Shown: piece by piece, positions 3,374 through 31,397 of the stretch
Layout: the number at the start of each line of letters is the position of its first letter
Numbering within the stretch: position 1 is the first letter of the stretch
DNA from: Nitrosomonas sp.
GTDB lineage: Bacteria > Pseudomonadota > Gammaproteobacteria > Burkholderiales > Nitrosomonadaceae
NCBI GenBank assembly: GCA_021774075.1
Contig: JAJFJK010000051.1
Span: 1-36,776 of the forward strand
DNA: 36,776 nt
Direction of reading: 5' to 3'
Notes under the pieces: generated by a model
Seen by the model: only the letters and a program-made list of their open reading frames with translations
Database searches by the model: none
Told to the model about the DNA's origin: nothing
Translations under genes and position numbers: made by a program

Positions 3374-3379
3374 CAATAT

Positions 3380-3521
3380 GGGCACCTCTAAGAATCCAGA
3401 TTTCATCCCAACTGCTGCGTTGCGAAAGAGAATTCCTTGCTTACATATCAACCATATGCTGCGCTGCAAAATTTTTTACGCGCCTTGCATTTGGGCGAAC
3501 TCTGAATTCTTAGAGGCACCC
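3380..3521 (-). mobile_element. 142-bp foldback MITE, copy 2
   Basis: Same family as copy 1, inverted relative to it. Ends are GGGCACCTCTAAGAA and TTCTTAGAGGCACCC. A perfect 4-bp direct duplication ATAT flanks it (3376-3379 and 3522-3525). It is inserted between the btuM stop (3371-3373) and the cobO start, and the last two bases of the right duplication are the A and T of the cobO ATG. Removing the element and one duplication leaves a 4-nt spacing between btuM stop and cobO start, so the two genes were tightly linked before insertion. Confidence 0.9.
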
Positions 3522-3526
3522 ATATG
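3513..3526 (+). promoter_or_regulatory. MITE-borne Shine-Dalgarno and start codon of cobO
   Basis: GAGG at 3513-3516 is part of the terminal repeat of MITE copy 2. It lies 7 nt before the ATG at 3524, an ideal spacing. The ancestral ribosome site would have been at the end of btuM (ACAGGG), now 140 bp away. cobO translation should now depend on the element. The other arm of the element is complementary to this site, so folding of the transcript would hide it. Confidence 0.6.
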
Positions 3527-4129
3527 ACGGATACCGAGCGTGCTGAGCGCCACCGTAATCGCATGCAGCGTAAAAAAGAAGTGGTTGATGCGGCCATTAC
3601 ACGCGCTGATAAAGAAAAAGGCTTGCTGTTAGTCCATACGGGCAATGGCAAAGGCAAATCCAGCTCGGCTTTTGGCATGATTGCACGTGCCTTGGGACAT
3701 GGCATGCATGTGGGTGTGGCACAGTTTATCAAAGGCCGCTCGGATACCGGTGAAGAAGCGTTTTTCCGCAAACAGGAAAATGTAGTCTGGCACGTCTTGG
3801 GAGAAGGTTTCACCTGGGATACACAAAATCTGGCACGGGATACCGAAACGGCACAACATGGCTGGGCCACTGTGCAGGAAATGCTGCGCGACCCGACACT
3901 GGATTTGATTATCCTGGATGAATTGACCTATCCACTCAAGTTTGGCTGGCTGGATTTATCTGCAGTATTACATGATTTAGAAAATCGTCCAGCCATGCAG
4001 CATGTTGTCATAACCGGGCGTGGTGCACCCGATGCGCTTTGTGAAGCGGCCGATACCATAACTGAAATGCGCGATATCAAACATGCCTTCCGGGCGGGTA
4101 TTCAAGCACAGAAAGGAATCGATTTGTGA
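3524..4129 (+). CDS. cobO: Cob(I)alamin adenosyltransferase (CobO/BtuR type)
   Basis: Transfers the 5'-deoxyadenosyl group of ATP to cob(I)alamin or corrinoid precursors. The 201-aa length and content match the CobA/CobO/BtuR family: the unusual P-loop GNGKGKSS (residues 40-47), AFGMIARALGHGM, the VAQFIKG strand, LIILDELTYPLKFGWL and the TGRGAPDAL segment near the C-terminus. It is not the unrelated PduO type. The start at 3524 lies immediately after MITE copy 2, which supplies the Shine-Dalgarno. Its 3' end overlaps cbiA by 4 bp (GTGA). Confidence 0.93.
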   Translation: MTDTERAERHRNRMQRKKEVVDAAITRADKEKGLLLVHTGNGKGKSSSAFGMIARALGHGMHVGVAQFIKGRSDTGEEAFFRKQENVVWHVLGEGFTWDTQNLARDTETAQHGWATVQEMLRDPTLDLIILDELTYPLKFGWLDLSAVLHDLENRPAMQHVVITGRGAPDALCEAADTITEMRDIKHAFRAGIQAQKGIDL

Positions 4130-5415
4130 GACAGTGCCCGGCATTGCTGATTAGCGCTCCGGCATCCGGGCAAGGCAAAACAACGGTTACTGCCGCAATG
4201 GCCCGATTTCATAGAAGCCGTGGTCGCAAGGTTCGTGTATTCAAGGCTGGGCCTGATTTTCTTGATCCAATGATTTTGCAACAAGCATCCGGTTATCCAG
4301 TTTATCAACTGGATTTATGGATGGTTGGTCAAGCGCATTGCCAGCAACTGCTATATCAAGCTGCAGCCACAGCAGATTTAATTCTAATCGAAGGGGTTAT
4401 GGGACTGTTCGATGGCGAGCCGTCCAGTGCCGACCTTTCAGCAGCATTCGGCATTCCCGTGTTAGCCGTGATTGATGCGACGGCGATGGCGCAAACTTTC
4501 GGTGCCGTGGCACATGGGTTGGCTACTTATCAACCCACATGCAAAATTGCCGGTGTATTGGCTAACCGCGCGGGAAGCCTTGTACATGAGGAAATGCTCA
4601 GAGAAAGTTTGCCAAATAATCTGGCCTGGTTTGGGGCACTGCCACGCCATGAGAAAGGCAATTTACCCAGCCGCCACCTGGGCCTAGTACAAGCAAAAGA
4701 AATTAACAATCTAGAACATTCTCTGGATCAATTAGCCGATAATCTATCTACTACCGGCCTGGATAAGCTGCCATCTGATGTCGTCTTTAACGCATCCGGC
4801 GCGTTGCCTGATCAATTACCCTCGCTTGAAGGAATACGTATCGCAGTTGCTTCAGATGCAGCTTTTAGCTTTATCTATCAAGCAAACTTAGACTTGCTAC
4901 AGGCCATGGGTGCTGAACTGAATTTTTTCTCGCCACTTGATGATACCGTGCTGCCAGAAGTGGATAGTCTGTACTTGCCAGGCGGTTACCCTGAGTTACA
5001 CCTGGAAAAACTTATGGCTAATCACGACATTCACAACGCTATTCATGCGCATTATGCTGCCGGCAAACCCATTGTTGCAGAATGTGGCGGCATGCTTTAT
5101 TTACTGACAACACTAACAGACTGCGATGGAAAAAGTGCAAGACTACTCGACCTGTTTCCCGGCAAAGCGACCATGCAAACCCATTTGGTCAATTTGGGGT
5201 TGCATGCTGCCACCTTCCCACAAGGTGAATTACGCGGTCATACCTTCCATCATTCGCAATTGGAAACAGATGTTCAACCTTCAGCCTATACACAGCCAAC
5301 AAGAAAAGGGCTGCGGTCTGAGGCATTATTCAGTTTAGGGCGACTAACTGCATCCTATATGCATTGGTATCTGCCTTCAAACCCGGCTGTCACTGCGGCA
5401 TTATTTTCACCATGA
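4126..5415 (+). CDS. cbiA: Cobyrinic acid a,c-diamide synthase
   Basis: Glutamine-dependent amidotransferase that amidates side chains a and c of the corrin ring with ATP. The N-terminal DRTG-like ATPase domain opens with SAPASGQGKTT (about 10-20) and contains IEGVMGLFDG. The C-terminal class I glutaminase-like domain has PGGYPELH and the nucleophile motif ECGGMLYL (Cys320), then TFHHSQ. The 429-aa length is normal for CbiA/CobB. The start is GTG at 4126, overlapping the cobO stop. Its own stop overlaps the bluB start (ATGA). CbiA is typical of the early-cobalt route, but I see no ring-building genes here that would confirm this. Confidence 0.92.
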   Translation: MRQCPALLISAPASGQGKTTVTAAMARFHRSRGRKVRVFKAGPDFLDPMILQQASGYPVYQLDLWMVGQAHCQQLLYQAAATADLILIEGVMGLFDGEPSSADLSAAFGIPVLAVIDATAMAQTFGAVAHGLATYQPTCKIAGVLANRAGSLVHEEMLRESLPNNLAWFGALPRHEKGNLPSRHLGLVQAKEINNLEHSLDQLADNLSTTGLDKLPSDVVFNASGALPDQLPSLEGIRIAVASDAAFSFIYQANLDLLQAMGAELNFFSPLDDTVLPEVDSLYLPGGYPELHLEKLMANHDIHNAIHAHYAAGKPIVAECGGMLYLLTTLTDCDGKSARLLDLFPGKATMQTHLVNLGLHAATFPQGELRGHTFHHSQLETDVQPSAYTQPTRKGLRSEALFSLGRLTASYMHWYLPSNPAVTAALFSP

Positions 5416-6065
5416 AAAAACATATCTTTAATGAATCGGAACGGGAAGCCATTTACCGTGTTATCGCCGAGCGCCGTGACATGCGTCACTTTCTTCCCGA
5501 CCCAGTAGACCCAATTGTATTGAAACGCATACTTGCCGCCGCACACCAGGCACCCAGCGTGGGCCTAATGCAACCCTGGCGGTTTATACGCATCACTGAC
5601 ATTCAATTGCGCAGCGCCATAGCCGCATTGGTAGAGGAAGAACGTGTACACACAGCCAAAGCCATGGCCGAGCGGAGCGATGAATTCATGCGTCTAAAAG
5701 TTGATGGCATTTTAGAATGTGGCGAGCTTCTAGTCGCTGCATTGGGTGACAAACGTGAGCAACATATCTTTGGCCGCCGCACCTTACCGGAAATGGATCT
5801 GGCTTCGGTAGCCTGCGCCATTCAAAACTTATGGCTGACCGCACGTGCTGAAGGTTTGGGCATGGGCTGGGTTTCATTGTTTGACCCTGAACAACTTGCC
5901 CAATTGCTAAACATGCCTGCGGGCAGCAAACCTGTCGCTATTTTGTGTTTGGGTCATGTCGAAGCCTTTTATCCCGCACCGATGTTAAAAATAGCGGGCT
6001 GGGCAGATGAGCGCCCTTTACAGGAATTATTATTTCATAACACCTGGGGCAGTATAGAAGAATGA
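5412..6065 (+). CDS. bluB: 5,6-dimethylbenzimidazole synthase BluB
   Basis: Flavin-destructase that uses O2 to fragment reduced FMN into 5,6-dimethylbenzimidazole, the lower ligand of cobalamin. It has the nitroreductase fold: RRDMRHF (FMN-phosphate binding region), AAHQAPSVGLMQPWRFI, GRRTLPEMDLASVACAIQNLWL, and GLGMGWVSLFDP. The 217-aa length fits the family. I chose the ATG at 5412, which overlaps the cbiA stop as ATGA; an in-frame start 48 bp upstream would lie deep inside cbiA and lacks conserved sequence. The gene implies that the organism makes its own DMB under aerobic conditions. Confidence 0.92.
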   Translation: MKKHIFNESEREAIYRVIAERRDMRHFLPDPVDPIVLKRILAAAHQAPSVGLMQPWRFIRITDIQLRSAIAALVEEERVHTAKAMAERSDEFMRLKVDGILECGELLVAALGDKREQHIFGRRTLPEMDLASVACAIQNLWLTARAEGLGMGWVSLFDPEQLAQLLNMPAGSKPVAILCLGHVEAFYPAPMLKIAGWADERPLQELLFHNTWGSIEE

Positions 6066-6973
6066 GCATCACGCTTGTTGTTTTGGCTGCATTACTGCTT
6101 GATGCATGGCTCGGTGAACCCCGTCGTTTTCACCCGTTGGTCGGATTTGGAAAACTTGCTGAATACACTGAGCGGCGTTTTTATGCAGACTCAAAGGTGC
6201 ACGGCTGCATGGCAGTGCTGCTACTGGTAACACCATTGATACTACTCGCAACATTTATAAATTTCATACCCTGGCACTTCGTTGTTGATATTTTAGTGTT
6301 ATATCTTGCGCTGGGCTGGAATAGCCTGGGCGCGCACGCCCGTATGGTAAAGAGCGCATTGTTTGCAGATAACTTGATTGCAGCACGTCAGCATGTGGGC
6401 TTGATACTCAGCCGCGACACAACTGAACTGGATCAAGTTGAAGTCACACAGGGCACCATTGAATCGGTTTTGGAAAATGGTAATGATGCCATTTTTGGCG
6501 TTATTTTTTGGTTTATCGTAGCTGGCGCACCTGGTGCAATCGCCTATCGGTTGATCAATACATTGGATGCCATGTGGGGCTATCGTAATGAACGCTACAA
6601 CCATTTTGGCTGGGCTGCGGCACGCCTGGATGATTGTTTAAACTTCATGCCGGCACGACTCACCGCACTCAGTTATGCACTAACTGGTAGTGTACGTAAT
6701 GCTTTTGTATGCTGGCAAACACAAGGCACAAGCTGGAAAAGCCCCAATGCAGGGCCGGTTATGGCATCAGGTGCGGGCAGCCTGAGCGTTTCACTCGGCG
6801 GCCCTGCCACCTATCACGGCAAACGCGAATCTCGCCCCATACTGGGAACTGGGCGCTTGCCTGATGCGAATGATATTGATCATGCCTTAGGGTTAATAAC
6901 ACGATCATTGATGCTGTGGTTGGTAGTTTTATGTGCAGGAGAATGGTTTGTTAAATTCATCCTGTCCACCTGA
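6062..6973 (+). CDS. cbiB: Adenosylcobinamide-phosphate synthase (CbiB/CobD)
   Basis: Integral membrane enzyme joining the aminopropanol phosphate arm to adenosylcobyric acid. The 303-aa protein begins with the family signature LLLDAWLGEPRRFHPLVGFG. It contains ESVLENGNDAIFGVIFWF, the NTLDAMWGYRNERYNHFGWAAARLDD stretch (split by the family's conserved NTLDAM and ARLDD motifs) and GGPATYHGKRESRP near the end, with several membrane helices. It starts with an ATGA overlap on bluB and ends inside the beginning of the next gene, so expression is probably coupled. Confidence 0.92.
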   Translation: MSITLVVLAALLLDAWLGEPRRFHPLVGFGKLAEYTERRFYADSKVHGCMAVLLLVTPLILLATFINFIPWHFVVDILVLYLALGWNSLGAHARMVKSALFADNLIAARQHVGLILSRDTTELDQVEVTQGTIESVLENGNDAIFGVIFWFIVAGAPGAIAYRLINTLDAMWGYRNERYNHFGWAAARLDDCLNFMPARLTALSYALTGSVRNAFVCWQTQGTSWKSPNAGPVMASGAGSLSVSLGGPATYHGKRESRPILGTGRLPDANDIDHALGLITRSLMLWLVVLCAGEWFVKFILST

Positions 6974-7967
6974 GAAATTACACCATGGCGGTCGTCTACG
7001 CACCGCAGCCAAGCGCTATAATATTCCTCTCGAAGATTGGGTTGATCTGTCAACTGGCATTAATCCCAATGGCTGGCCAGTTAAAATCATCCCCGCCGCC
7101 ATGTGGCAGCGATTACCCGAAGATGACGATGAATTGATCGAAGTGGCTTGTCGCTATTATGGCGCACCGTCGCTGTTGCCCGTCGCCGGTTCACAAGCCG
7201 CCATTCAGGCGCTCCCACAATTACGCCAACAATCCCGTGTTTGCCTGCTCAGCCCCAGTTATACCGAACACGCCCACGCCTGGCAACGCGCCGATCATCA
7301 CGTAACAACCGTCACGCCCGAACAAATCGATGACGCTTTACCAGATACTGATGTCCTCGTCATCATCAACCCCAACAACCCAACCGGCGCTGTTTTTTCA
7401 GTTGAACAATTACTCGACTGGCACTCACAACTCGCCAAACGTGGCGGCTGGTTAATCGTCGACGAAGCCTTTATGGATGTCACACCTAAGCAGAGTATTG
7501 CATCCCATACCGCATCCCCTGGTTTAATCGTATTGCGTTCATTGGGAAAATTCTTTGGTTTAGCGGGGGTGCGCGTGGGTTTTGTCTGCGCCAATGAAAC
7601 CTTATTGGCGCAAATGGATGTAGTGCTTGGTCCCTGGACAATTAGTAACGCGTCACGCTGGGTTGCGATTCAAGCGCTTCAGGATTATGGCTGGCAGGAA
7701 AGAACACGTCTAAACCTCGTCAAAGAAAATGAACGTTTACTATCACTATTGTCACAACACAACTTACCACCCGATGGCGGTTGTGAATTTTTTTTATGGG
7801 TCAATACACCCCATGCGGCAACCATTCATGAAAGGCTTTTACGTCAAGGAATTTTGACCCGGCTTTTTAATACACCGCAGAGTTTGCGTTTTGGGCTGCC
7901 GGGTACAGAGGTTGAGTGGGGGCGTCTGAGTGAAATATTGATTGGAATTGCTGATATAAGGAAATGA
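6948..7967 (+). CDS. cobD: Threonine-phosphate decarboxylase-like PLP enzyme (CobD/CobC)
   Basis: PLP enzyme of aminotransferase fold I, predicted to make (R)-1-amino-2-propanol phosphate, the linker attached by CbiB. The motifs are HHGGRLR, WVDLSTGINPNGWP near the N-terminus, VIINPNNPTGAVF, IVDEAFMD, and LRSLGKFFGLAGVRVGF containing the Schiff-base lysine. The start is chosen as TTG at 6948 because AGGAGA at 6937-6942 precedes it by 5 nt; a GTG at 6933 in the same frame lacks a good site. This gives 339 aa and a 26-bp overlap with cbiB. The symbol follows Salmonella usage; Pseudomonas calls the equivalent gene cobC. Confidence 0.88.
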   Translation: MLNSSCPPEKLHHGGRLRTAAKRYNIPLEDWVDLSTGINPNGWPVKIIPAAMWQRLPEDDDELIEVACRYYGAPSLLPVAGSQAAIQALPQLRQQSRVCLLSPSYTEHAHAWQRADHHVTTVTPEQIDDALPDTDVLVIINPNNPTGAVFSVEQLLDWHSQLAKRGGWLIVDEAFMDVTPKQSIASHTASPGLIVLRSLGKFFGLAGVRVGFVCANETLLAQMDVVLGPWTISNASRWVAIQALQDYGWQERTRLNLVKENERLLSLLSQHNLPPDGGCEFFLWVNTPHAATIHERLLRQGILTRLFNTPQSLRFGLPGTEVEWGRLSEILIGIADIRK

Positions 7968-8036
7968 GTACTCAAACATTAATAACTCCTGAATTCGTAT
8001 ATATTGCGTTATGTCATAAAACAATACGAGAACCTC

Positions 8037-8639
8037 ATGAGCGATGAGTTAAGACGTAAGGGACAAAGATTCGCTAAATTTCTGTCTGAACTAACTGGCG
8101 AACAAATAGCAGAGGGGAATAAAGCTAATTTCGAATCAGCACAAAATCAATTTGAACGATTTAAAAATGATTACAACCAAGGTCGATGTTATTTATGTCA
8201 CAAAGAACTCAAGTCATTCAGCAAAAGAACACCGTGTATTCATTGGCTCTTAAAGCCTAAGGGCTTTAAGAAAAAAGATTTATTAGCCATTGCTGACAAC
8301 TACGGATACTTCCAAATCCAGAGCTTGCTTCGCTGGTATGCTAACGAAGAAAGTTTTGGTAAAAATATTAATAGCTTAAAAGAAGAAGGTTCTGGCAACA
8401 AACTGTTTGAAGTGACAATAAAATATAAAAATATTGAGTGGTCTTTTTCATGTGCAAAATCTGATTATATGGGCCATGAAAAATCTCAACACTCCAAACA
8501 TGCCCACTATCACTTTCAAATGCGAGTTGATAACCGACCATATATTAATTTCAATGACTTCCATTTGCCATTTAGCGAAATGGACATTCTTCACATTGAA
8601 ACGATGCATTCTCAATCAGCGAGGGTAAAGCAAAGGTAA
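8037..8639 (+). CDS. Unrecognised protein with CxxC and His-rich segments
   Basis: I do not recognise this 200-aa protein. The first third is charged and probably helical (LRRKGQRFAKFLSEL), followed by CYLCHKEL, which looks like half of a zinc-binding site. The C-terminal half contains FSCAKSDYMGH and then a cluster of histidines (HEKSQHSKHAHYH), which may complete a metal site. There are no membrane segments or signal peptide. The DNA is clearly more AT-rich than the flanking cob genes. The ATG at 8037 is preferred to a TTG 33 bp upstream. It shares no link to cobalamin chemistry that I can see and appears inserted with the next small gene between cobD and cobQ. Confidence 0.7.
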   Translation: MSDELRRKGQRFAKFLSELTGEQIAEGNKANFESAQNQFERFKNDYNQGRCYLCHKELKSFSKRTPCIHWLLKPKGFKKKDLLAIADNYGYFQIQSLLRWYANEESFGKNINSLKEEGSGNKLFEVTIKYKNIEWSFSCAKSDYMGHEKSQHSKHAHYHFQMRVDNRPYINFNDFHLPFSEMDILHIETMHSQSARVKQR

Positions 8640-8666
8640 ACTTTTGGAGAGGGGATAGAAGAGCTT

Positions 8667-8954
8667 ATGGCGGATACGGACTTTTTAAACAAAGTCGTAT
8701 CCGGTGACGCTTTCACTAATAGCGAGAAAGAAGCAAGAGCTCCATTTAAAATAGATTCTTTAGTCTATGCTGGTGAAGGGAAAAAAATAAAAGGTGATGA
8801 CTTGTACAAGATCATTCAAGAAACGAAAGCTAAAAATGTTCCTGTTGCAAGCTTATTACATAAGCTACCCAATACCGATTCACAAATCATTGTCACCCCA
8901 GGCCCAGGTGTAGTTGAACAAACTCCTAGATCCGGGGGTAAAAACAACAAGTGA
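8667..8954 (+). CDS. Small unrecognised protein, partner of the upstream gene
   Basis: A 95-aa soluble protein, 27 bp after the preceding gene and on the same strand, with GGAGAGGGGAT and AGAAGAG upstream of its ATG. The middle (DDLYKIIQETKAKNVPVASLLHKL) looks like a small helical domain; the C-terminus is low in complexity and rich in Pro, Gly and Lys and may be disordered. No family is recognisable. Similar AT-rich composition suggests that it arrived together with its neighbour. A two-gene accessory module (for example toxin-antitoxin or defence) is possible, but no motif demonstrates it. Confidence 0.6.
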   Translation: MADTDFLNKVVSGDAFTNSEKEARAPFKIDSLVYAGEGKKIKGDDLYKIIQETKAKNVPVASLLHKLPNTDSQIIVTPGPGVVEQTPRSGGKNNK

Positions 8955-9001
8955 TGACACAGTGTTGAATAAAAAACCCGCCTATTAACTTAAACATGAT
9001 T

Positions 9002-9019
9002 AGCGGATGACGCTCCGCT
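9002..9019. repeat. Short palindrome before cobQ
   Basis: AGCGGA (9002-9007) and TCCGCT (9014-9019) form a 6-bp stem with a 6-nt loop, 12 bp upstream of the cobQ ATG. It has no U tract, so it is unlikely to be a terminator. It may mark the right edge of the inserted two-gene segment or affect cobQ translation, since no clear Shine-Dalgarno is seen there. Confidence 0.3.
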
Positions 9020-9031
9020 TATCCATCCCAT

Positions 9032-10510
9032 ATGAACACTAAAACCCTAATGATCCAAGGCACCACCTCCGACGCAGGCAAAAGTATGCTGGTGACAGCA
9101 TTGTGCCGTTGGTTGGCGCGGCAGGGTGCTCAGGTTGCACCGTTTAAACCGCAGAATATGGCGTTGAATAGTGTGGTTACTGAAGACGGTGGTGAAATGG
9201 GTCGGGCACAGGCGGTTCAGGCACATGCTTGTGGTTTGAAGCCGCATACGGATATGAACCCGGTGTTGCTGAAACCGAATACCGATGTGGGGGCGCAGGT
9301 GATCATTCATGGTCATGCCGTCGGCAATATGGATGCTGGTCATTATCACGACTACAAAACGATTGCACTCAACGCCGTACTTGAATCTCATGCGCGACTC
9401 ACTACCAACTATGACCGAGTCATTGTTGAAGGTGCGGGTTCACCGGCTGAGATTAATTTGCGTGACAATGACATTGCCAATATGGGATTTGCCGAGGCGG
9501 TTGATTGTCCGGTGATCCTCATTGCCGACATTGACCGGGGTGGGGTATTTGCCCATTTGGTGGGGACACTGGCGTTACTCAGTGATAGTGAGCAAGCACG
9601 CATCAAAGGTTTTGTGATTAATCGTTTTCGGGGTGATATGGCATTGTTGCAATCGGGGCTGGATTGGCTGGAAGAATACACGGGCAAGCCGGTGCTGGGT
9701 GTTTTGCCTTATTTGCATGGCTTACATCTTGAGGCGGAAGATGCCGTGCCGCATACTTCTGAGGCTGAAGTCTTTAAAGAAACGCAATGTATCAATATTA
9801 TTGTTCCTGTCCTACCGCGCATCAGCAATCACACTGATTTTGATCCGCTAAGACTACATCCACAAGTTAACCTACAATTTATTCGGCTTGGTGATGACAT
9901 CCCATCAGCTGATTTGATTATTCTTCCCGGTTCAAAAAGTGTGCGTGCTGATCTTGAATTGATTCGTCAACATGGTTGGGAAATGGCGATTAAGAAACAT
10001 TTGCGCTACGGTGGAAAAATCATTGGTATTTGTGGCGGCTTCCAAATGATGGGCAAACTGATTCATGACCCCGATGGGTTGGAAAGTAACGCGGGCAGTA
10101 GCAATGCGATGGCATTATTTAACATGAGCACTACACTGGCACCGGATAAACAATTACGTAATGTGTATGGCACATTGGCATTGGATGATTCAACTGTCAC
10201 TGGCTATGAGATTCATGCAGGTGTCACGACTTATCATTCAATTTACGCGCCAGCCGTTTGTTTAGCGCACGGGTCAGATGGTGCCATGAGTGCGGATGGG
10301 ATGATTCTTGGTACTTATTTACATGGGCTCTTTGAATCACCAACGGCTTGTACTACATTACTTTCCTGGGCGGGATTAAATGACGCAAAGCCATTTGATT
10401 ATCACGCATTGCATGAAACAGCAATTAATCGTCTGGCAGATACGATTGAGCAACATATGGATACAGCTCAACTCTATAAGCTCCTTAATCTTGAGAAGGT
10501 TCCATCATGA
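9032..10510 (+). CDS. cobQ: Cobyric acid synthase
   Basis: Glutamine-dependent amidotransferase that amidates side chains b, d, e and g of adenosylcobyrinic a,c-diamide. The 492-aa protein starts [18 protein letters not shown] with the ATPase loop. It contains [32 protein letters not shown], then the glutaminase domain with [11 protein letters not shown], the nucleophile motif [10 protein letters not shown] (Cys334), YEIHAG and [10 protein letters not shown]. All key motifs are present. It restarts the cob series after the two-gene insertion, and no strong ribosome site is visible before the ATG. The stop overlaps cobU by ATGA. Confidence 0.94.
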
Positions 10511-11034
10511 CAAACACACATACGCTAATCCTGGGTGGTGTGCGTTCAGGAAAAAGCCGTTTAGCGGAACGATTGGCGATTGAAAGCCAATTGCCAGTGA
10601 CCTACATTGCTACGGCCACGGCTCAAGATGAGGAAATGCACAAACGTATTGCAATACATCGTAAACAACGGCCTGATCATTGGCATGTTATAGAAGAACC
10701 CACCAAACTGGCAGCGGCATTATCAAATGTCACTATTGGACATTGCATTTTGCTCGATTGCCTGACGCTGTGGCTAACGAATCTACTCCTTACCGATGAT
10801 TCATCATTATTTACGCAAGAACGTGATGCTTTTTTAACCGTATTGCCCACACTTAAAAATCGTATGCTCATTGTCAGCAATGAAACCAATATGGGCATCA
10901 CACCCCTGGGTGAACTGAGCCGTCGCTATTGTGATGAAGCAGGTAGATTGCATCAAGAAATTGCACAACAATGTGAGCAGGTCATTCTAACTGTTGCCGG
11001 CTTGCCACATGTGCTCAAAGGAGAACAGTTGTGA
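10507..11034 (+). CDS. cobU: Adenosylcobinamide kinase / guanylyltransferase
   Basis: Bifunctional enzyme that phosphorylates adenosylcobinamide and then attaches GMP to give AdoCbi-GDP. The 175-aa protein begins with [18 protein letters not shown] (P-loop GGVRSGKS). It continues with [27 protein letters not shown], which carries the conserved histidine accepting [16 protein letters not shown]; and [11 protein letters not shown]. The ATG overlaps the cobQ stop, and the stop overlaps the GTG of cobT, indicating coupled translation. Confidence 0.94.
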
Positions 11035-12104: not shown

Positions 12105-12110
12105 TTTGCT

Positions 12111-14209: not shown

Positions 14210-14312
14210 GATTGAATGAATCCTAAGGAAGTGTGGAATATTGGAATCTTGCCCTATGTGACAACTTTACACAAATGAAAATTATATTTCTTACAACATA
14301 TTTTATTTATTT

Positions 14313-14915: not shown

Positions 14916-14918
14916 TGA

Positions 14919-19267: not shown

Positions 19268-19301
19268 TAGTCAAGTCAAACAGTGCTTCCGCTTTTCTTC
19301 C

Positions 19302-20468: not shown

Positions 20469-20476
20469 ATATTCTC

Positions 20477-20703: not shown

Positions 20704-20705
20704 TG

Positions 20706-21497: not shown

Positions 21498-21499
21498 CG

Positions 21500-22459: not shown

Positions 22460-22692
22460 TAAAATAAAATTAATAAATTACAAAAGTTCTTATAGAATTT
22501 CTAATTAATTTTTAGCTTGATAGTCGACGCGGTCAATGCAACGAAAAATTTAAACGTTTCAGCATCCAGACATCAAGCCATACATTAATCAGTAATTCTT
22601 TAACAATTATCATTTTAGCATGGTCAATGCCAACTGGGTTGTGGCTAATTACGGGCCATGGTCATTTTTAATACTGTAGGTGATGTAACAAA

Positions 22693-25485
22693 ATGAGTAT
22701 TTCTAGTTCAGAAAACAATAATCCCGAAGATAATTCATTAAATGACAAAGACTTGCCGCTTCGTGACGACATTCGTCTATTGGGGCGCATGTTAGGAGAC
22801 ACACTGCGCGAGAATGAAGGTGATGGCGCCTTTGATTTGGTCGAGAAAATTCGTCAGACAGCCATTCGCTTCCACAGAGAACAAGACCCGGAAGCACGGC
22901 ACGAACTTGACGTCATCCTCAACGAACTGAGTAACAAAGCCACTGTTACTGTCGTGCGGGCTTTTAGTTATTTTTCCCAACTTTGCAACATTGCTGAGGA
23001 TGTACACCATAACAGACGCCGTCGCGCCCATCTTTGCGCCGGATCATCACCGCAGGCGGGTAGCGTAACACTTGCGTTGGAGCGCGTACTGGCAAATGGA
23101 AAAGATAGCGCCGCACTCGCCAGCTTCTTTGCCAAAGCAATCGTTTCTCCTGTGCTCACGGCACATCCGACAGAAGTTCAGCGTAGAAGCATTCTGGATT
23201 GCCAATTAACTATTGAACGCTTGCTAAAAGATCGTGCCCGCACACAACTGACACCCAATGAGTTGCGCCATAATAAGGAAAATTTGCGCGCCATGATTCA
23301 AATTCTATGGCAAACACGTATGCTACGCTCAGTACGTTTATCCGTGCACGACGAAATTGAAAATGGCTTGGCCTTTTACAGTTACTCCTTTCTAACGGAA
23401 GTACCTTATATCTACGCAAAAATAGAGAATCTACTGGAACATCGCATGGGGCAAGACGCGCCAAATGTTGCTTCTTTCCTGCGTATTGGCAGTTGGATTG
23501 GCGGTGACCGTGACGGTAACCCCTTTGTCACACATCAAGTGATGCTGCATGCAGCAGAGCGTCAATCAGCATTGGCATTAGAATTTTATATCGATGAGGT
23601 TGAAAAAATCGGGCACACCATGAGCCTGGCTGAGCGTATGGTAAATGTTACCGATGAGTTAGAAGAATTAGCTGCATCGTCACCGGATATTCCTGCCTGT
23701 CGGATTGATGAACCTTACCGGCGTGCATTCGTCGCCATGAACGCACGTCTGACAGCAACTAGCAAACGCTTAGGGCACACGACAACACCCGGCCAAATTG
23801 AGCCGTCTGAACCTTACGCGGATAGCGCTGAGTTTATTCATGATCTTGACGTGATTACCGCGTCATTAAAACAACACAAATCGAACTGGCTGGCACGCGG
23901 CCCGTTACGTAATCTACGCCGCGCGGCCGATGTGTTTGGCTTTCACCTGGCACCATTGGATATGCGTCAACACAGCAAGGTGCATGAACAAGTGGTGGTT
24001 GAATTGTTTGAGCTGGGCACACATCGCAATGACTACCTGGATCTATCCGAAGATGACCGCATAGAATGGTTGTTGACCGAAATCAGCAGTCCGCGTCCGT
24101 TACTTTCACCTTACTTGGAATATTCTGATTCAACACAGGCAGAGTTACGCATATTGCAAATGGCCGCAGAAATTCAGAGCCGTTTTGGTCACGCCGCAAT
24201 GCCTAACTACATTATTTCCATGACAACAAACGTAATTAATGTATTAGAAGTCGCATTGTTGTTGAAAGAAGTCGGTTTGTTACAGGCAGGGGAAAACCCC
24301 TTCCTGGGTATGAATATTATTCCACTATTCGAAACCATCACAGATTTGCGAGATTGCGGTGTAATCATGGATCAGTTGTTTGCGCTACCCTACTACCGCA
24401 AACTACTCATGTCGCGCAAGAATGTACAGGAAGTGATGCTGGGGTATTCAGACAGTAATAAGGATGGCGGTTTTATTACGTCTAACTGGGAGATTTATAA
24501 AGCCGAGATTGAGCTGACAAAAGTGTTTGCCAAACACAATATTGAATTACGTTTATTTCATGGGCGTGGCGGCACGGTTGGGCGGGGTGGCGGCCCAAGT
24601 TACCAAGCCATACTGGCACAACCACCAGGTAGTGTGAATGGTCAGATACGTGTTACAGAGCAGGGAGAAGTAATTGGCAGCAAGTATGCCGAACCCGAAA
24701 TTGGCCGACGCAATCTTGAAACACTAGTAGCCGCAACAATTGAAGCGACGTTACTCGGCCACGACCCGCTTGGAGATAATGACGACCGTTACCATCAGGT
24801 CATGGAAAAACTCGCCGATCATTCCTTTTCTGCCTATCGTAATTTGGTGTTTGAAACACCTGGATTTAAACAATTCTTCCAGGAATCAACACCCATACGT
24901 GAAATTGCCGGATTACATATCGGCAGCCGCCCCGCTTCACGTAAGCAAAGTGATGATATCGAGGACTTACGTGCCATCCCTTGGGTTTTTAGCTGGGGAT
25001 TGAATCGTGCCATGATTCCGGGATGGTATGGTTTTGGTCTTGCCATTGAAGCATTCATACAAGAAAATCAATCTGATGTCGGACTAGAGCTGCTTCAGGA
25101 AATGTATCGCACCTGGCCATTTATGCAAACTTTGTTATCCAACATGGATATGGTATTAGCTAAATCTGATATGGGTATCGCTTCACGCTATGCCGAATTG
25201 GTAACGGATGAAGTATTACGTGAGCAAATCTTTGGACGGATACGTGAAGAATGGGAACGCTGCCAGAAATGGTTGTTTGCGATAACAGGAAATACAGAGT
25301 TATTGCAGGACAATCCAACCTTAGCACGCAGTCTTCGTAACCGGTCGCCATATATTGACCCATTAAATCATTTACAGGTGGAATTGCTGCGCCGTTATCG
25401 CTCCGGCGAGGACAGTGACGAAGTCAAGCGCGCCATCCATCTCACCATTAATGGCGTAACATCCGGCTTGCGTAACAGCGGTTAA
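22693..25485 (+). CDS. ppc: Phosphoenolpyruvate carboxylase
   Basis: Carboxylates PEP with bicarbonate to oxaloacetate, replenishing the TCA cycle. The 930-aa protein has the active-site motif VLTAHPTEVQRRSI with the catalytic histidine, GGDRDGNPFV, GYSDSNKDGG, the loop FHGRGGTVGRGGGPSYQAI, and the family C-terminal tail TINGVTSGLRNSG. All conserved motifs are intact. The ATG at 22693 follows AGGTGATG by a normal distance. Regulation by aspartate or acetyl-CoA is usual in the family but cannot be judged here. Confidence 0.96.
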   Translation: MSISSSENNNPEDNSLNDKDLPLRDDIRLLGRMLGDTLRENEGDGAFDLVEKIRQTAIRFHREQDPEARHELDVILNELSNKATVTVVRAFSYFSQLCNIAEDVHHNRRRRAHLCAGSSPQAGSVTLALERVLANGKDSAALASFFAKAIVSPVLTAHPTEVQRRSILDCQLTIERLLKDRARTQLTPNELRHNKENLRAMIQILWQTRMLRSVRLSVHDEIENGLAFYSYSFLTEVPYIYAKIENLLEHRMGQDAPNVASFLRIGSWIGGDRDGNPFVTHQVMLHAAERQSALALEFYIDEVEKIGHTMSLAERMVNVTDELEELAASSPDIPACRIDEPYRRAFVAMNARLTATSKRLGHTTTPGQIEPSEPYADSAEFIHDLDVITASLKQHKSNWLARGPLRNLRRAADVFGFHLAPLDMRQHSKVHEQVVVELFELGTHRNDYLDLSEDDRIEWLLTEISSPRPLLSPYLEYSDSTQAELRILQMAAEIQSRFGHAAMPNYIISMTTNVINVLEVALLLKEVGLLQAGENPFLGMNIIPLFETITDLRDCGVIMDQLFALPYYRKLLMSRKNVQEVMLGYSDSNKDGGFITSNWEIYKAEIELTKVFAKHNIELRLFHGRGGTVGRGGGPSYQAILAQPPGSVNGQIRVTEQGEVIGSKYAEPEIGRRNLETLVAATIEATLLGHDPLGDNDDRYHQVMEKLADHSFSAYRNLVFETPGFKQFFQESTPIREIAGLHIGSRPASRKQSDDIEDLRAIPWVFSWGLNRAMIPGWYGFGLAIEAFIQENQSDVGLELLQEMYRTWPFMQTLLSNMDMVLAKSDMGIASRYAELVTDEVLREQIFGRIREEWERCQKWLFAITGNTELLQDNPTLARSLRNRSPYIDPLNHLQVELLRRYRSGEDSDEVKRAIHLTINGVTSGLRNSG

Positions 25486-25555
25486 AAGCAACCCGCCAAC
25501 AATCGACTAAAACTGATTGATTAATATCACTTAATAGCCTGTTAGAGAAATTCTT

Positions 25556-26860
25556 ATGCCAATAAAACGCCTCATATTTATCTTACTGATCAGCTTTTAT
25601 TCACAATGGGTATTAGCCTCACCAGCTATTCAGTATTGGCAAACAGCCAATGGCGCACGCGTATATTTTGTTGAAAACCATGATTTGCCGATGCTGGATG
25701 TCAGTGTGGAATTTAGTGCTGGCAGCAGTACGGATACGCATGAGAAATCAGGTCGTGCCAGCCTCACTCAGCATTTGCTGAGATTGGGTGCCGGTGGCCT
25801 GTCTGAAGACCAAATTACCACAGCGCTTGCTGATGTTGGCGCACAATTGGGCGGACATTTTGATCGAGATCGCGCAGGCTTATCACTACGTACATTAAGC
25901 AGTGAACGCGAACGCAAACAAGCATTAGATGTTTTCTCCCGCATTATCCAGCATGCGAAATTTCCAGCAGACATTCTGGCACGCGAGAAAACAAGAAGCA
26001 TTGCAGGTTTACAAGAAGCCAGCACCAAACCCAGCTATATTGCGGGTCGCGAGTTAACGAAAATGCTGTATGGCAAGCACGCCTATGGATTAAACGGATC
26101 CGGTGAAATCGATACCATCCATGCATTAAAACGCGAAGACCTTGTCGCATTTTATCAATCTTACTATACCGCCAGGAATGCAGTTGTCGCCATCATTGGT
26201 GATGTCAGTCGACTCGAAGCAGCAGTGATTGCAGAACTGTTAACTGAGAATTTACCCGTACATGGGAAAACCAACCAACTATCCCCGGTTAAAATTCCTG
26301 ACGCACAAATAAAAAGGATCCCCCACCCTGCGACCCAGAGCCATATTCAACTTGCTTATCCCGGATTACGTCGCAGCGACCCGGATTATTTTCCACTTTT
26401 AGTCGGCAACTATATCTTCGGTGGCGGCGGATTTGTTTCACGTTTAACGGAAGAAATACGCCAACAACGCGGTCTTGCATACAGTGTGCACAGTTTTTTC
26501 GCACCATATAAAGAGCAAGGCCCCTTCCAAATCGGCCTGCAAACCAAAAAGGAACAATCTGAAAAAGCACTGGCGCTAACGCAGAAAGTACTTAAAGATT
26601 TTGTTACCAGTGGCCCCACAGAACAAGAGCTGATTGCTGCCAAGCAAAATATTATTGGCGGTTTTCCACTACGGCTGGATAGCAACCAGAAAATTTTAGG
26701 CTATCTTTCCATGATTGGATTTTATGATTTACCACTCACCTATGTGGATGATTATTTGGCCGCAGTGGAAGTTGTTACGACCACACAAATCAAGCAGGCA
26801 TTTCAGCGTCGCATTCGGCCAGAAGGTATGGTCACTGTGATTGTTGGCGCAGCAGAGTAG
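25556..26860 (+). CDS. M16-family protein without the zinc-binding motif
   Basis: A 434-aa protein with a signal peptide (cleavage near ALASPA, residues 19-24), so periplasmic. It has the M16 (insulinase-like) fold: an N-terminal domain with NGARVYFVENHDLPMLDVSVEF, and a C-terminal domain with GNYIFGGGGFVSRLTEEIRQ and RGLAYSVHSFF. Where active members have HxxEH, this one reads TQHLLR (residues 71-76), so the zinc site is lost. Such proteins usually pair with an active M16 protein encoded next to them, but ppc is upstream here. A structural or chaperone-like subunit is likely. Confidence 0.85.
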   Translation: MPIKRLIFILLISFYSQWVLASPAIQYWQTANGARVYFVENHDLPMLDVSVEFSAGSSTDTHEKSGRASLTQHLLRLGAGGLSEDQITTALADVGAQLGGHFDRDRAGLSLRTLSSERERKQALDVFSRIIQHAKFPADILAREKTRSIAGLQEASTKPSYIAGRELTKMLYGKHAYGLNGSGEIDTIHALKREDLVAFYQSYYTARNAVVAIIGDVSRLEAAVIAELLTENLPVHGKTNQLSPVKIPDAQIKRIPHPATQSHIQLAYPGLRRSDPDYFPLLVGNYIFGGGGFVSRLTEEIRQQRGLAYSVHSFFAPYKEQGPFQIGLQTKKEQSEKALALTQKVLKDFVTSGPTEQELIAAKQNIIGGFPLRLDSNQKILGYLSMIGFYDLPLTYVDDYLAAVEVVTTTQIKQAFQRRIRPEGMVTVIVGAAE

Positions 26861-26884
26861 CAACCCCTGTTATAACATTACGCA

Positions 26885-27908
<1,024 letters not shown>

Positions 27909-27916
27909 TTTTTTGA

Positions 27917-28174
<258 letters not shown>

Positions 28175-28328
28175 ACCACCTGAAACGCATCGCTTCAAAG
28201 AGAATACCGAAGTGTTTTTCTGATTCTCCACTGCTGCAAGAAAACATTCCTTTCAACCGCTTCATTCGATGAAACCCAATTCGGCGTTTGCCTGCCTTGG
28301 ATCAACTTAATTTTTATCTATTCCATCC

Positions 28329-28346
28329 GTTGACATGCTAGTCAAC
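28329..28346. promoter_or_regulatory. Palindrome overlapping a -35-like element upstream of pilT
   Basis: GTTGAC (28329-28334) and GTCAAC (28341-28346) are perfect inverted repeats with a 6-nt spacer. The left arm runs into TTGACA (28330-28335), a consensus -35. No convincing -10 is seen 17 bp downstream, so a promoter is uncertain. It could be an operator for the pilTU unit. This is the only structured feature I see in the 278-bp gap. Confidence 0.3.
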
Positions 28347-28452
28347 CTTAAAAATCAGTTATTCACAGCATAAACACTAAGGATTAAGGGATTAGTTACC
28401 AAAAACTGCCACTTGGATAAAGTCAGCATCACTGCCACAAAAGGACATCACA

Positions 28453-29496
28453 ATGAATATAGTTGAGCTACTTGCTTTCGTAGTTAAAAATGAAGCGTCT
28501 GATTTACACTTGTCTGCCGGTATGCCGCCAATGATTCGTGTACATGGTGATATTCGGCGCATTAATTTGCCAGAAATGGATCATAAAGAAGTACACGCTA
28601 TGGTGTATGACATTATGAATGACGGTCAACGCAAGTTTTATGAAGAGCATTTAGAATGCGATTTTTCCTTTGAAGTACCCAATCTTGCACGCTTTCGTGT
28701 GAATGCATTCAATACGCAACGTGGTGCCGCCACAGTTATGCGGACTATTCCCTCTAAAGTATTAACGCTGGAAGACCTCAAAGCACCCAAGATTTTCTCG
28801 GAAATTACCAAGCAACCACGCGGTGTGGTGCTGGTAACCGGGCCAACCGGCTCAGGAAAATCGACCACACTGGCCGCCATGATCAATGACATCAATGAAA
28901 ATGACTACGGCCATATTCTGACGCTTGAAGATCCGATCGAATTTGTACACGAAAGCAAAAAGTGCCTGATCAATCAACGTGAAGTTGGGCGCGACACATT
29001 AAGTTTCTCCAATGCATTACGCTCAGCGTTACGTGAAGATCCAGATATCATTTTAGTCGGTGAGATGCGTGATCTGGAAACCATACGCTTGGCAATGACT
29101 GCGGCAGAAACAGGACATTTGGTTTTTGGCACCTTGCACACCAGTTCTGCGGCGAAAACCATTGACCGTATTATTGATGTTTTCCCAGCGGAAGAAAAAG
29201 AAATGATGCGTGCAATGCTATCAGAATCCCTACGTGCCGTTATCTCACAAGCACTGTTAAAAACAAAGGACGGCAAGGGCCGTGTCGCTGCGCATGAAAT
29301 TATGATTGGCACACCAGCTATTCGCAATCTGATACGTGAAGCTAAAATTGCACAAATGTATTCAGCCATTCAAACAGGCCAGGGGGTTGGTATGCAAACA
29401 TTGGACCAAAACTTAACCGAAATGGTCAGTCGCAATGTTATATCTATGGCCGAGGCTCGCAGCAAGGCCATGAATAAAGACAATTTCCGGGTTTAA
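28453..29496 (+). CDS. pilT: Type IV pilus retraction ATPase PilT
   Basis: Hexameric cytoplasmic ATPase that depolymerises pili for twitching. The 347-aa protein shows SDLHLSAGMPPMIRVHGDI, Walker A GPTGSGKSTT (about residue 130), the Asp box LTLEDPIEFVH, the Walker B region DPDIILVGEMRDLETI, the His box TGHLVFGTLHT, and the PilT-diagnostic AIRNLIREAK near the C-terminus. AAGGA precedes the ATG. It forms an operon with pilU, 40 bp downstream. Confidence 0.96.
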   Translation: MNIVELLAFVVKNEASDLHLSAGMPPMIRVHGDIRRINLPEMDHKEVHAMVYDIMNDGQRKFYEEHLECDFSFEVPNLARFRVNAFNTQRGAATVMRTIPSKVLTLEDLKAPKIFSEITKQPRGVVLVTGPTGSGKSTTLAAMINDINENDYGHILTLEDPIEFVHESKKCLINQREVGRDTLSFSNALRSALREDPDIILVGEMRDLETIRLAMTAAETGHLVFGTLHTSSAAKTIDRIIDVFPAEEKEMMRAMLSESLRAVISQALLKTKDGKGRVAAHEIMIGTPAIRNLIREAKIAQMYSAIQTGQGVGMQTLDQNLTEMVSRNVISMAEARSKAMNKDNFRV

Positions 29497-29536
29497 TAGA
29501 TCAACAAGGCTGCCGCCAAATTTTCAGGAGCAAATA

Positions 29537-30682
29537 ATGGATCGAGAACAAGCCACAAAATTTATGCATGATTTGTTGCGTTTAATGCTCAGCAAAAACG
29601 GCTCGGATTTATTTATTACTGCCGGATTTCCACCTTCAATAAAAATTGATGGGAAACTGACGCCAGCCTCTCAACAGTCACTCACAGCAACGCATACAGC
29701 AGATCTGGTACGTGCAGTCATGAATGACAAGCAGGCGGCTGAGTTCGAAGAAACTCAAGAATGCAACTTTGCTATAAATCCACCCGGCATCGGCCGCTTC
29801 CGTGTCAATGCTTTTGTACAACAGCAAAGAGTCGGCATAGTGTTGCGTACCATTACCACTACCATTCCAGATTTTGATGATTTAGGCTTGCCGCAAGTAC
29901 TCAAGGAAGTCGTTATGAGTAAACGTGGCTTGGTGATTTTTGTCGGCGGCACAGGCTCAGGTAAATCGACATCCATGGCCGCGTTAATCGGGCATCGTAA
30001 TAAAAACAGTCATGGGCACATCATTACCATTGAAGACCCAGTGGAATTTGTGCATGAGCATATCAACTGTGTCATCACACAACGTGAAGTAGGCGTGGAT
30101 ACGGATTCGTGGGAAGCCGCTTTAAAAAACACATTGCGTCAGGCACCTGATGTCATCCTTATCGGCGAGATACGTGATCGCGAAACCATGGAACACGCCA
30201 TTGCTTTTGCCGAAACCGGGCATTTATGTATGGGCACATTACACGCCAACAGCGCAAACCAGGCGCTTGATCGTATTATTAACTTTTTCCCGGAAGAACG
30301 CCGCGCACAGTTATTAATGGATTTGTCCCTGAATATGAAAGCATTTGTTGCACAGCGTTTGATTCCATTAAAAGATGGCAAAGGGCGTGTCGCCGCGATA
30401 GAAATAATGCTCAACTCCCCGCTGGTCTCAGACTTGATTTTCAAAGGCGATGTACATGAACTCAAGGAAATCATGAAGAAATCAAGTGAAATGGGTATGC
30501 AAACCTTTGATATGGCCTTATTTGATCACTATGAGTCTGGCAAAATAAGCTATGAAAATGCCATGAGAAATGCGGACTCCATGAATGAACTCCGCCTGAA
30601 AATCAAACTTGAAGGCGCCGAGGCAAAAGACAGTGATTTAGATTCAAGCATCGCACATTTGACAATTACTGAATCTGATTAA
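29537..30682 (+). CDS. pilU: PilT-dependent retraction ATPase PilU
   Basis: PilT paralogue that assists retraction. The 381-aa protein has Walker A GGTGSGKST, Asp box ITIEDPVEFVHEH, APDVILIGEIRDRETM, and TGHLCMGTLHANSANQALDRIINFFPEE. It carries the extra C-terminal tail typical of PilU and lacks the AIRNLIRE motif of PilT. GGAG lies 8 nt before the ATG. A strong terminator follows 41 bp after the stop. Confidence 0.95.
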   Translation: MDREQATKFMHDLLRLMLSKNGSDLFITAGFPPSIKIDGKLTPASQQSLTATHTADLVRAVMNDKQAAEFEETQECNFAINPPGIGRFRVNAFVQQQRVGIVLRTITTTIPDFDDLGLPQVLKEVVMSKRGLVIFVGGTGSGKSTSMAALIGHRNKNSHGHIITIEDPVEFVHEHINCVITQREVGVDTDSWEAALKNTLRQAPDVILIGEIRDRETMEHAIAFAETGHLCMGTLHANSANQALDRIINFFPEERRAQLLMDLSLNMKAFVAQRLIPLKDGKGRVAAIEIMLNSPLVSDLIFKGDVHELKEIMKKSSEMGMQTFDMALFDHYESGKISYENAMRNADSMNELRLKIKLEGAEAKDSDLDSSIAHLTITESD

Positions 30683-30722
30683 GTCGACTGTTTACACACA
30701 CAGACTACTAAACTGCTAAAAT

Positions 30723-30762
30723 AAACCGGCCTCGGATCATATAATTCGAGGCCGGTTTTTTT
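30723..30762 (+). terminator. Intrinsic terminator of pilTU
   Basis: AAACCGGCCTCG (30723-30734) pairs perfectly with CGAGGCCGGTTT (30747-30758), 12 bp and GC-rich, followed by a run of T (30756-30762). This is a textbook Rho-independent terminator. A foldback element begins three bases later. Confidence 0.93.
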
Positions 30763-30765
30763 ATA

Positions 30766-30906
30766 GGGCACTTCTAAAAACCCAGATTTCATCCCAACTG
30801 CTGTGTTACAGAAAAAATTTATTGCTGTCATATCTAACATATGCTGCGCTGCAAAATTTTTTCTGTGCCTTGCATTTGGGCGAACTCTGAATTTTTAGAA
30901 GCGCCC
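30766..30906 (-). mobile_element. 141-bp foldback MITE, copy 3
   Basis: Same family, orientation as copy 2. Ends are GGGCACTTCTAAAAA and TTTTTAGAAGCGCCC. Flanking tetranucleotides TATA (30762-30765) and TAAA (30907-30910) agree at three positions. It lies between the pilU terminator and the ABM-domain gene. With copy 4 it flanks that gene in inverted orientation. Its tips carry AGAAG, not the Shine-Dalgarno-like AGAGG, and the downstream gene has its own ribosome site. Confidence 0.88.
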
Positions 30907-30947
30907 TAAATTGTATCGAGGAAAACATTCATTCAGGGAGCAAGTTA

Positions 30948-31250
30948 ATGGTCGTAACCATCGTGTATGTTTCCGTCAAAGCGGAAAACGTAGACGCCTT
31001 CAAAGAAGCCTGTCGGCTAAATCATGAAAGCTCTATCCAGGAACCCGGTAATGTACGCTTTGATATTTTGCAGTCAGCGGATGGACCGACAAAATTCGTA
31101 CTTTACGAAGCCTATAAAACACAGCAAGATGCAGCAGCGCATAAAAATACAGCGCATTATCTGGCATGGCGCGAAACGGTAGCGGACTGGATGGCAGAAC
31201 CACGCCAGGGTATTAGTTACGAAGGACTGTACCCGATAGTGAACGAATAA
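30948..31250 (+). CDS. ABM-domain (LsrG/YgiN-like) protein
   Basis: A 100-aa single-domain protein of the antibiotic-biosynthesis-monooxygenase superfamily (dimeric ferredoxin-like barrel). It shows VTIVYVSVKAENVDAFKEAC, RFDILQSADGPTKFVLYEAY and DAAAHKNTAHYLAWR, closest in pattern to LsrG-like members. The chemistry is unknown, possibly an isomerase or monooxygenase acting on small oxidised compounds. CAGGGAGC lies 6 nt before the ATG. Its TAA stop is part of the target duplication of MITE copy 4; before insertion it would have overlapped the alcohol dehydrogenase start as TAATG, so the two probably work together. Confidence 0.85.
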   Translation: MVVTIVYVSVKAENVDAFKEACRLNHESSIQEPGNVRFDILQSADGPTKFVLYEAYKTQQDAAAHKNTAHYLAWRETVADWMAEPRQGISYEGLYPIVNE

Positions 31251-31251
31251 T

Positions 31252-31392
31252 GGGTGCCTCTAAAAATTCAGAGTTCGCCCAAATGCAAGGCGCGGAAAAA
31301 ATTTCGCGGCACAGCATATGGTTTATATGTAAGCAAGAAATTTTTTCCGCAACGCAATAATTGGGATGAAATCTGGATTTATAGAGGTGCCC
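31252..31392 (+). mobile_element. 141-bp foldback MITE, copy 4
   Basis: Same family, orientation as copy 1. Ends are GGGTGCCTCTAAAAA and TTTATAGAGGTGCCC. A perfect 4-bp duplication TAAT flanks it (31248-31251 and 31393-31396). The left duplication contains the TAA stop of the ABM gene, and the right one contains the first two bases of the dehydrogenase ATG. The element thus split a TAATG stop-start overlap while leaving both codons intact. Confidence 0.9.
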
Positions 31393-31397
31393 TAATG
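31384..31397 (+). promoter_or_regulatory. MITE-borne Shine-Dalgarno and start codon of the alcohol dehydrogenase
   Basis: GAGGTG at 31384-31389 belongs to the terminal repeat of MITE copy 4. GAGG ends 7 nt before the ATG at 31395, the same spacing as at cobO (3513-3526). The native site would have been within the end of the ABM gene. The opposite arm of the element can pair with this site in the mRNA. Confidence 0.6.

Follow-up and report, generated by a model that had tools for sequence, protein, structure and literature searches.

The window studied here, a 36,776-nt stretch of Nitrosomonas sp. DNA (GenBank assembly GCA_021774075.1, contig JAJFJK010000051.1, our C172, in a genome of 3.49 Mb and 225 contigs), carries copies of a miniature inverted-repeat transposable element (MITE), two of which end 2 nt before the ATG of a gene and place a Shine-Dalgarno (SD)-like motif at a working distance from it. 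We consider it probable that this IS5-type element is tolerated at that distance (hereafter offset 2) and purged from the neighboring offsets, with its tip supplying the initiation signal of the gene behind it. The frequency of insertions at offset 2 appears to be set by target preference, and the scarcity of insertions nearby points to a role for the supplied signals.

Anatomy and target sites of the element

Copy 2 of the element (142 bp, reverse strand, positions 3380 to 3521) points its GAGG tip toward cobO/btuR, which by protein family match encodes a corrinoid adenosyltransferase (3524 to 4129, forward strand), and copy 4 (141 bp, forward strand, 31252 to 31392) points a GAGGTG tip toward the gene for an iron-containing alcohol dehydrogenase, also assigned by family match (31395 to 32588, forward strand). 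Both lie between perfect 4-bp target duplications. The right duplication (ATAT at 3522 to 3525; TAAT at 31393 to 31396) holds the A and T of the gene's ATG (3524 to 3526; 31395 to 31397), and the SD-like tip on the forward strand (GAGG at 3513 to 3516; GAGGTG at 31384 to 31389, with its GAGG at 31384 to 31387) leaves 7 nt to that codon. The left duplication (ATAT at 3376 to 3379; TAAT at 31248 to 31251) joins the first G of the element to form another ATG (3378 to 3380; 31250 to 31252). This codon opens an element-encoded leader open reading frame (ORF) on the forward strand: that of copy 2 has 49 amino acids (3378 to 3527) and a TGA stop that overlaps the cobO start as ATGA, and that of copy 4 has 36 amino acids (31250 to 31360) and ends 35 nt before the dehydrogenase ATG. 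Upstream of copy 2, a forward-strand gene without a family match (2792 to 3373) stops at a TAG 6 nt before the element; upstream of copy 4, a forward-strand gene for an ABM-domain protein (30948 to 31250), which scores below the cut-off of an LsrG-type isomerase model, has its TAA stop within the left duplication. A preliminary description of this DNA had reported the 2-nt geometry, the 7-nt spacing, and the ATAT and TAAT duplications, all of which were confirmed base by base. It had also proposed that either end of the element can serve, and this stands: cobO and the dehydrogenase gene use different tips, the copies being oppositely oriented. A consensus scan of copies 2 and 4 detected no outward promoter or terminator.

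The start codons of both genes agree with those of homologues, many of which begin there or a few residues off, and the Pfam domain Co_AT_N begins at residue 1 of cobO, whose closest named relatives are from Nitrosomonas. The dehydrogenase frame stays open from a GTG at 31254, across the element and on into the gene itself, so the enzyme could be made as a fusion with 47 element-encoded residues. However, the homologues begin at the later Met and the cobO ORF shows no such extension, and we regard a fusion as very improbable.

Copies in the window's own genome (the home genome) were collected from 113 stretches around the matches listed, together with the window, 825 kb in all, which contain at least 152 full-length and at least 22 partial copies. 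A pattern for one arm (2 mismatches) has 203 matches in the home genome versus 18 for its reversed control, and another arm pattern (3 mismatches) has 172 versus none. The first 61 copies examined are 139 to 142 bp long and lack a transposase gene. Terminal inverted repeats place a GGGYRCYTCTAAAAA-like sequence at both ends, and the 4-bp duplication is perfect at 98 of the 152 copies, with TTAA, TAAA, and TTTA commonest. The occurrence of GAGG or GAAG does not covary significantly between the two tips (p 0.17). Related sequences were present in 15 of 61 genomes in a first search, and the tip-plus-ATG pattern in 24 of 85 genomes of the genus.

A relative (G061, locus L196) contains a 1,340-bp insertion sequence (IS) with the same tips, an ATTA duplication, and a 353-amino-acid transposase ORF that scores 271 bits against the IS5 family model NF033581 (cut-off, 140) and exceeds the cut-offs of PF01609 and PF05598. 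Because the element is short, has inverted repeats, a target duplication, many copies, and empty counterparts, and because an IS with matching ends exists, it is, judged by these sequence features, a MITE with the terminal repeats of an IS5-family IS. An IS5-family transposase acting in trans most likely mobilized it. The 14 PF01609 matches of the home genome were considered as parents and rejected, as their loci have no tip pair (L194 has a single tip). One home locus (L155) shows a tip followed by IS-end-like sequence, the remainder of which lies outside the stretch taken, and at L198 in G034 tips lie 1,258 and 1,453 nt apart around ORFs that are shorter and look broken. In the relative G096, two forms predominate, one of 141 bp and one of 180 bp that contains an additional internal stretch, and several contigs end within an element. 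Another family of the same order also has a related element (L061, G059), which is again followed by ATATG.

Outside the element ends, the sequence logo reads T-T-A-A and then G (40% in the home genome, 52% in G096). After duplications of the form xxAT the next base is G at 14 of 27 ends in the home genome and at 35 of 45 in G096. Most of the ATGs so formed are not starts: in a genus sample of exact tips with a nearby ATG, whose relatives' part comprises 71 loci, 62 of the 73 ATGs at offset 2 are not called as start codons. As G is in excess after xxAT while most such ATGs are no starts, xxAT/G (the slash marking the junction) is a favored variant of a (C)TTAA(G)-like target. The earlier suggestion that the element targets xxAT/G thus holds as a preference, although the target is broader than that variant. 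An excess of TTATG beside G096 tips, read at one point as start codons, was set aside, since just 3 of 33 are called starts.

Insertion positions around start and stop codons

According to the explanation that we favor, the element inserts at palindromic target sites resembling (C)TTAA(G) and duplicates 4 bp. Gene edges often offer such sites, since TAA stops fit TTAA or TAAA, and starts preceded by TTAT, ATAT, TAAT, or TGAT fit xxAT/G. An xxAT/G insertion leaves the right ATG whole, 7 nt downstream of the element's GAGG, and a second ATG arises at the former native start from the left duplication and the first G of the element. Insertions elsewhere within 8 nt of a start would split the native ribosome-binding site without a well-spaced substitute and would mostly be lost. 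Offset 2 would then be tolerated at approximately the insertion rate and its neighbors purged.

Observed counts were set against those expected from gene pairs that lack the element, with weights for target preference. For 135 start-facing ends in the home genome, the distances to the start are 2, 2, 2, and 2 nt and then at least 9 nt, with one overlap of -27. With a target model that includes the base after the duplication, the four insertions at offset 2 compare with 1.96 expected (P 0.14), whereas the other offsets from 0 to 8 hold none versus 6.3 expected (P 0.002); that all four insertions at 0 to 8 nt should fall at offset 2 has a P value of 0.003. The preliminary description had staked its case beforehand on an enrichment at 2 nt. 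An enrichment does appear with a model of the 4 bp alone (0.86 expected), but it loses significance once the following G is added; offset-2 insertions do not exceed what target preference predicts. In G096, two insertions at offset 2 compare with 3.4 expected.

The genus sample gives a broader view of which ATGs near a tip are called starts. At offset 2 these are 2 of 9 in the home genome, 3 of 33 in G096, and 6 of 31 in other relatives; at offsets 3 to 8 they are 0 of 35, 1 of 36, and 2 of 36, and at offsets 9 to 12 they are 2 of 17, 2 of 23, and 2 of 11, respectively. When pooled, 11 of 73 at offset 2 compare with 3 of 107 at offsets 3 to 8 (Fisher p 0.0037). The difference persists without a doubtful locus (L433), which from its letters we take to be a transposase fragment (10 of 72; p 0.007), and with the two window copies added and L433 left out (p 0.002), the only test that copies 2 and 4 enter, as they miss the strict tip pattern. 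L274, previously counted at offset 2, was dropped because no start is called there with pooled training, and in two lists of relatives' places, 3 of 33 and 12 of 42 were left out for want of a locus. The start fraction at offset 2 is close to the model prediction for the home genome and G096 (0.16 to 0.19), whereas that at offsets 3 to 8 lies below the predicted 0.09 to 0.17.

These figures bear on a simpler explanation, in which the transposase prefers xxAT/G, offset-2 insertions are simply the most frequent ones next to an ATG, and survival does not depend on the tip signal. The agreement of the offset-2 counts with the target model in both genomes fits it well, as does the large majority of offset-2 ATGs that are not called starts, but it leaves the depletion of real starts at offsets 3 to 8 unexplained. 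We therefore consider it rather doubtful as a full account. We infer instead that selection on translation accounts for the scarcity at these offsets and that initiation makes use of the tip. As a separate observation, ATG is overrepresented 8 nt outside element ends (16 versus 6.1 expected in the home genome, 10 versus 4.2 in G096), and these ATGs are called starts in 0 of 16 and 1 of 10 cases.

Only 1 of the 152 rebuilt sites (L081) looks like an interrupted gene. This rebuilt-site test replaced an initial claim that no copy lies inside any gene (0 of 152 spanned by called genes), which is weak evidence because the element carries stops.

Insertion at stop codons is the larger positional signal in the home genome (loci L069 to L181). 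Element ends at stop offsets 0 and +1 number 27 versus 7.4 expected, and those within 0 to 25 nt of a stop number 83 versus 27.4. Six further copies rebuild a TAG stop from TA and the element's G, and six copies close the reading frame with a TAA that lies 12 nt into the element. No such excess is apparent in G096 (26 versus 20.5 within 0 to 25 nt); its stretches were chosen for having a tip and an ATG no more than 12 nt apart, a choice that may bias the stop-codon comparison. We did not retain stop-codon hugging as a family-wide rule, as it is strong in the home genome and not in G096.

Stop and start codons meet at some of the junctions that the element entered. Following the earlier proposal to compare orthologous loci, we found element-free junctions for both genes of the window. 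Among dehydrogenase relatives with a recognized start region, 8 of 16 have TA and 3 of 16 have TG before the ATG, which we read as probable stop-start overlaps (the start motif failed to recognize the loci of 13 further relatives). The TAAT duplication of copy 4 gave a stop codon to the upstream gene and a start codon to the dehydrogenase, and a DevA-family gene in G008 presents a like case, with TGAT duplicated from TGATG. The native gaps entered by copies 4 and 2, of -1 and 4 nt, respectively, are the narrowest two among 81 tandem insertions. For cobO, Nitrosomonas OFTM215 has a matching element-free junction, and no tip was found in the 70 nt before cobO at any of 27 relatives' junctions examined.

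Ribosome-binding signals, hairpin, and leader frames

Genes with an insertion at offset 2 are spread over six species. They are cobO, the alcohol dehydrogenase gene, hisD, and lptA in the home genome; coaE, cysM, and pgl in G096; trhP (U32) in G033; a DevA-family ABC ATPase gene in G008; rnhB in G068; and ispE and a weakly VIT-like gene in G006. The 11 sites with both element ends were analyzed together (pgl, L243, was omitted, as no left tip was found). The anti-SD sequence was taken from general knowledge, the 16S 3' end of the host having not been found in the loci examined.

GAGG stands 7 nt from the start at 10 of the 11 sites. Mean predicted anti-SD pairing is -0.4 kcal/mol at the rebuilt empty sites and -6.0 with the element, compared with a genome background of -2.8, and an anti-SD match of at least 4 is found at 2 empty sites, at 10 sites with the element, and in 39% of 494 background genes. 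Seven nucleotides is also the commonest GAGG spacing in 499 genes, of which just 38 have GAGG at 0 to 15 nt. The element therefore supplies, as far as motif and spacing tell, a putative portable ribosome-binding site. The rebuilt empty sites carry weaker signals than the genome overall (p 0.02), and decay of the left flanks after insertion could be an alternative source of this weakness.

Translation should be lost when an insertion separates an SD from its start, but in several Nitrosomonas species the element occupies just this position before genes such as coaE, ispE, and lptA. These three genes are essential in Escherichia coli, so initiation presumably works at them. The offset-2 geometry may explain how the element can sit inside operons.

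Several points weigh against the reading of tolerance through a supplied signal. Genes were called by a custom script, cases near starts are few, and the copies were drawn from the matches listed. The preliminary description had suggested that only such insertions survive; the depletion at offsets 3 to 8 in the home genome and in the pooled genus sample speaks for this, but in G096 alone the other offsets from 0 to 8 are not significantly depleted (4 versus 6.8 expected, P 0.19). Gene edges are sometimes hit, as seven copies shorten the upstream ORF by 3 to 252 nt according to the rebuilt sites. At lptA, the exception among the 11 sites, the tip is GAAG and pairing hardly improves (from 0.4 to -0.5 kcal/mol). 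Element-free cobO relatives average -4.0 kcal/mol (63 sequences, some from other genera), and those of the dehydrogenase average -2.1 (25 sequences); because element-free cobO already has a moderate signal, the gain is clearer for the dehydrogenase. Lastly, the SD is paired in the predicted fold at all 11 sites (unpaired probability, 0.0 to 0.02; 0.26 at lptA), and initiation should then be repressed unless the pairing is opened in some way.

The fold itself is reproduced in silico, with minimum free energies of -69.1 and -68.8 kcal/mol for the two copies (z scores of -6.9 and -5.3 versus shuffles). As had been proposed, the GAGG of copies 2 and 4 pairs in silico with the opposite tip (unpaired probability, 0.0). 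This pairing would make the suggested portable translational switch physically possible, although nothing that we saw implies a signal to which it would respond. When 11 nt of the 5' tip are forced open, modeled SD accessibility rises from 0.0 to 0.82 at cobO and to 0.42 at the dehydrogenase gene and reaches 0.62 at lptA; it is 0.21 to 0.25 at three other sites and at most 0.02 at five. Release of the SD thus works in the model at 3 of the 11 sites.

A left-junction ATG that opens an element-encoded leader ORF is new here, and its translation is a prediction. The codon is formed at all 11 offset-2 sites, because the element begins with G and xxAT plus G makes ATG. At 8 of the 11, the leader ends close to the gene, anywhere from 35 nt upstream of its ATG to an ATGA overlap with that codon, compared with 217 of 558 element ends generally that would give such a leader (binomial p 0.024, post hoc).

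Ribosomes supplied by the native signal or by the upstream gene might start at the left ATG, translate the leader through the hairpin, free the SD in the other arm, and stop near the gene, which would keep downstream translation coupled. We regard this as possible but doubtful, and as an addition to the favored explanation rather than its opposite. The universal left ATG, the 8 leaders that stop near the gene start, and the raised SD accessibility at cobO and the dehydrogenase gene are what such a process would predict, and copy 4 and the DevA-family site retain a stop-start overlap at the left junction. The leaders at hisD, rnhB, and the VIT-like gene, however, stop early; tip opening leaves the SD at 0.25 or below at 8 of the 11 sites; trhP lacks a nearby codirectional upstream gene, as do, judged by distance, cysM and the VIT-like gene; and the leader comparison, besides being post hoc, concerns frames that are mostly set by element orientation. 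Slightly more doubtful still is the fuller version, in which the tips and the target duplication of an xxAT/G insertion jointly form a translation relay: the start would be copied to both junctions, the native start would open the leader, and the ribosome on the leader would release the hairpin-hidden SD next to the start of the gene. If true, the element could split stop-start overlaps (TAATG, TGATG) without uncoupling the operon.

It is unlikely that copies before starts are kept for raising or regulating expression. The weakness of the rebuilt empty sites would fit such recruitment, as would the GAGG tip that faces the gene in three of the four offset-2 copies of the home genome, given that GAGG occurs on 71 of 304 ends (p 0.04). 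Against it, offset 2 shows no excess over target preference, and because none of the 27 relatives' cobO junctions has a tip, there is no sign of long conservation at that gene.

Known repeats and other features of the window

Like other IS5-derived MITEs, this element is short and AT-rich, has matching terminal repeats, a 4-bp duplication, and many copies, and shares its tips with an IS; unlike them, it has duplications that copy stop and start codons and a tip with an SD-like motif at a working distance. Further comparisons draw on parts of the papers cited. MITEAba12 of Acinetobacter is likewise an IS-derived MITE of ~113 bp, with stops in six frames and proposed effects on neighbors (PMC6382973), but its duplication is 9 bp, its proposed promoters point outward, and the parts consulted describe no ribosome-binding site (PMC6382973). 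The pneumococcal BOX, RUP, and SPRITE repeats are enriched downstream of genes and some BOX-derived ORFs are transcribed; BOX encodes the 3'-end stop codon in 36 cases (PMC3049150). These repeats are thus a known precedent both for clustering 3' of genes and for stop codons that a repeat encodes (PMC3049150). The BOX-derived ORFs differ in lacking a good SD, and in the parts consulted no start-codon duplication is described (PMC3049150). Rickettsia palindromic elements are also mobile, ~150 bp long, and meet reading frames, but they insert in frame within genes (PMC10969869), whereas here 1 of 152 rebuilt sites looks like an interrupted gene. Translational coupling systems share stop-start overlaps and a predicted SD-hiding hairpin with the Nitrosomonas sites (PMC12548453, PMC6728339), whereas here hairpin and SD would arrive by a mobile element and coupling is a prediction. 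The main text of a 2024 review of prokaryotic MITEs mentions no ribosome, Shine-Dalgarno, start codon, or stop codon (PMC10969869), and a literature search of open-licence papers turned up none on MITE tips as initiation signals. If the tip is used, the terminal repeats of a mobile element double as initiation signals, and operons can be invaded unbroken. The many natural insertions would then be a ready experiment on start geometry, hairpins, and coupling.

The remaining copies in the window have GAAG tips and no adjoining start codon. Copy 3 (reverse strand, 30766 to 30906) lies 41 nt before the ABM-domain gene. Copy 1 (forward strand, 525 to 665) begins at the 3' edge of a cobalamin riboswitch (Rfam RF00174, 117 bits, 316 to 537), the only feature of the window to reach an Rfam gathering score, and sits between the aptamer and a gene at 813 to 2675 that reads, by eye, like a TonB-dependent receptor. 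A short ORF at 32716 to 33090 resembles REP-associated tyrosine transposases (45 bits; model cut-off, 80). Toward the end of the window, a 34-nt inverted repeat (34605 to 34638 and 34839 to 34872) has arms that are 97% complementary and 200 nt apart.

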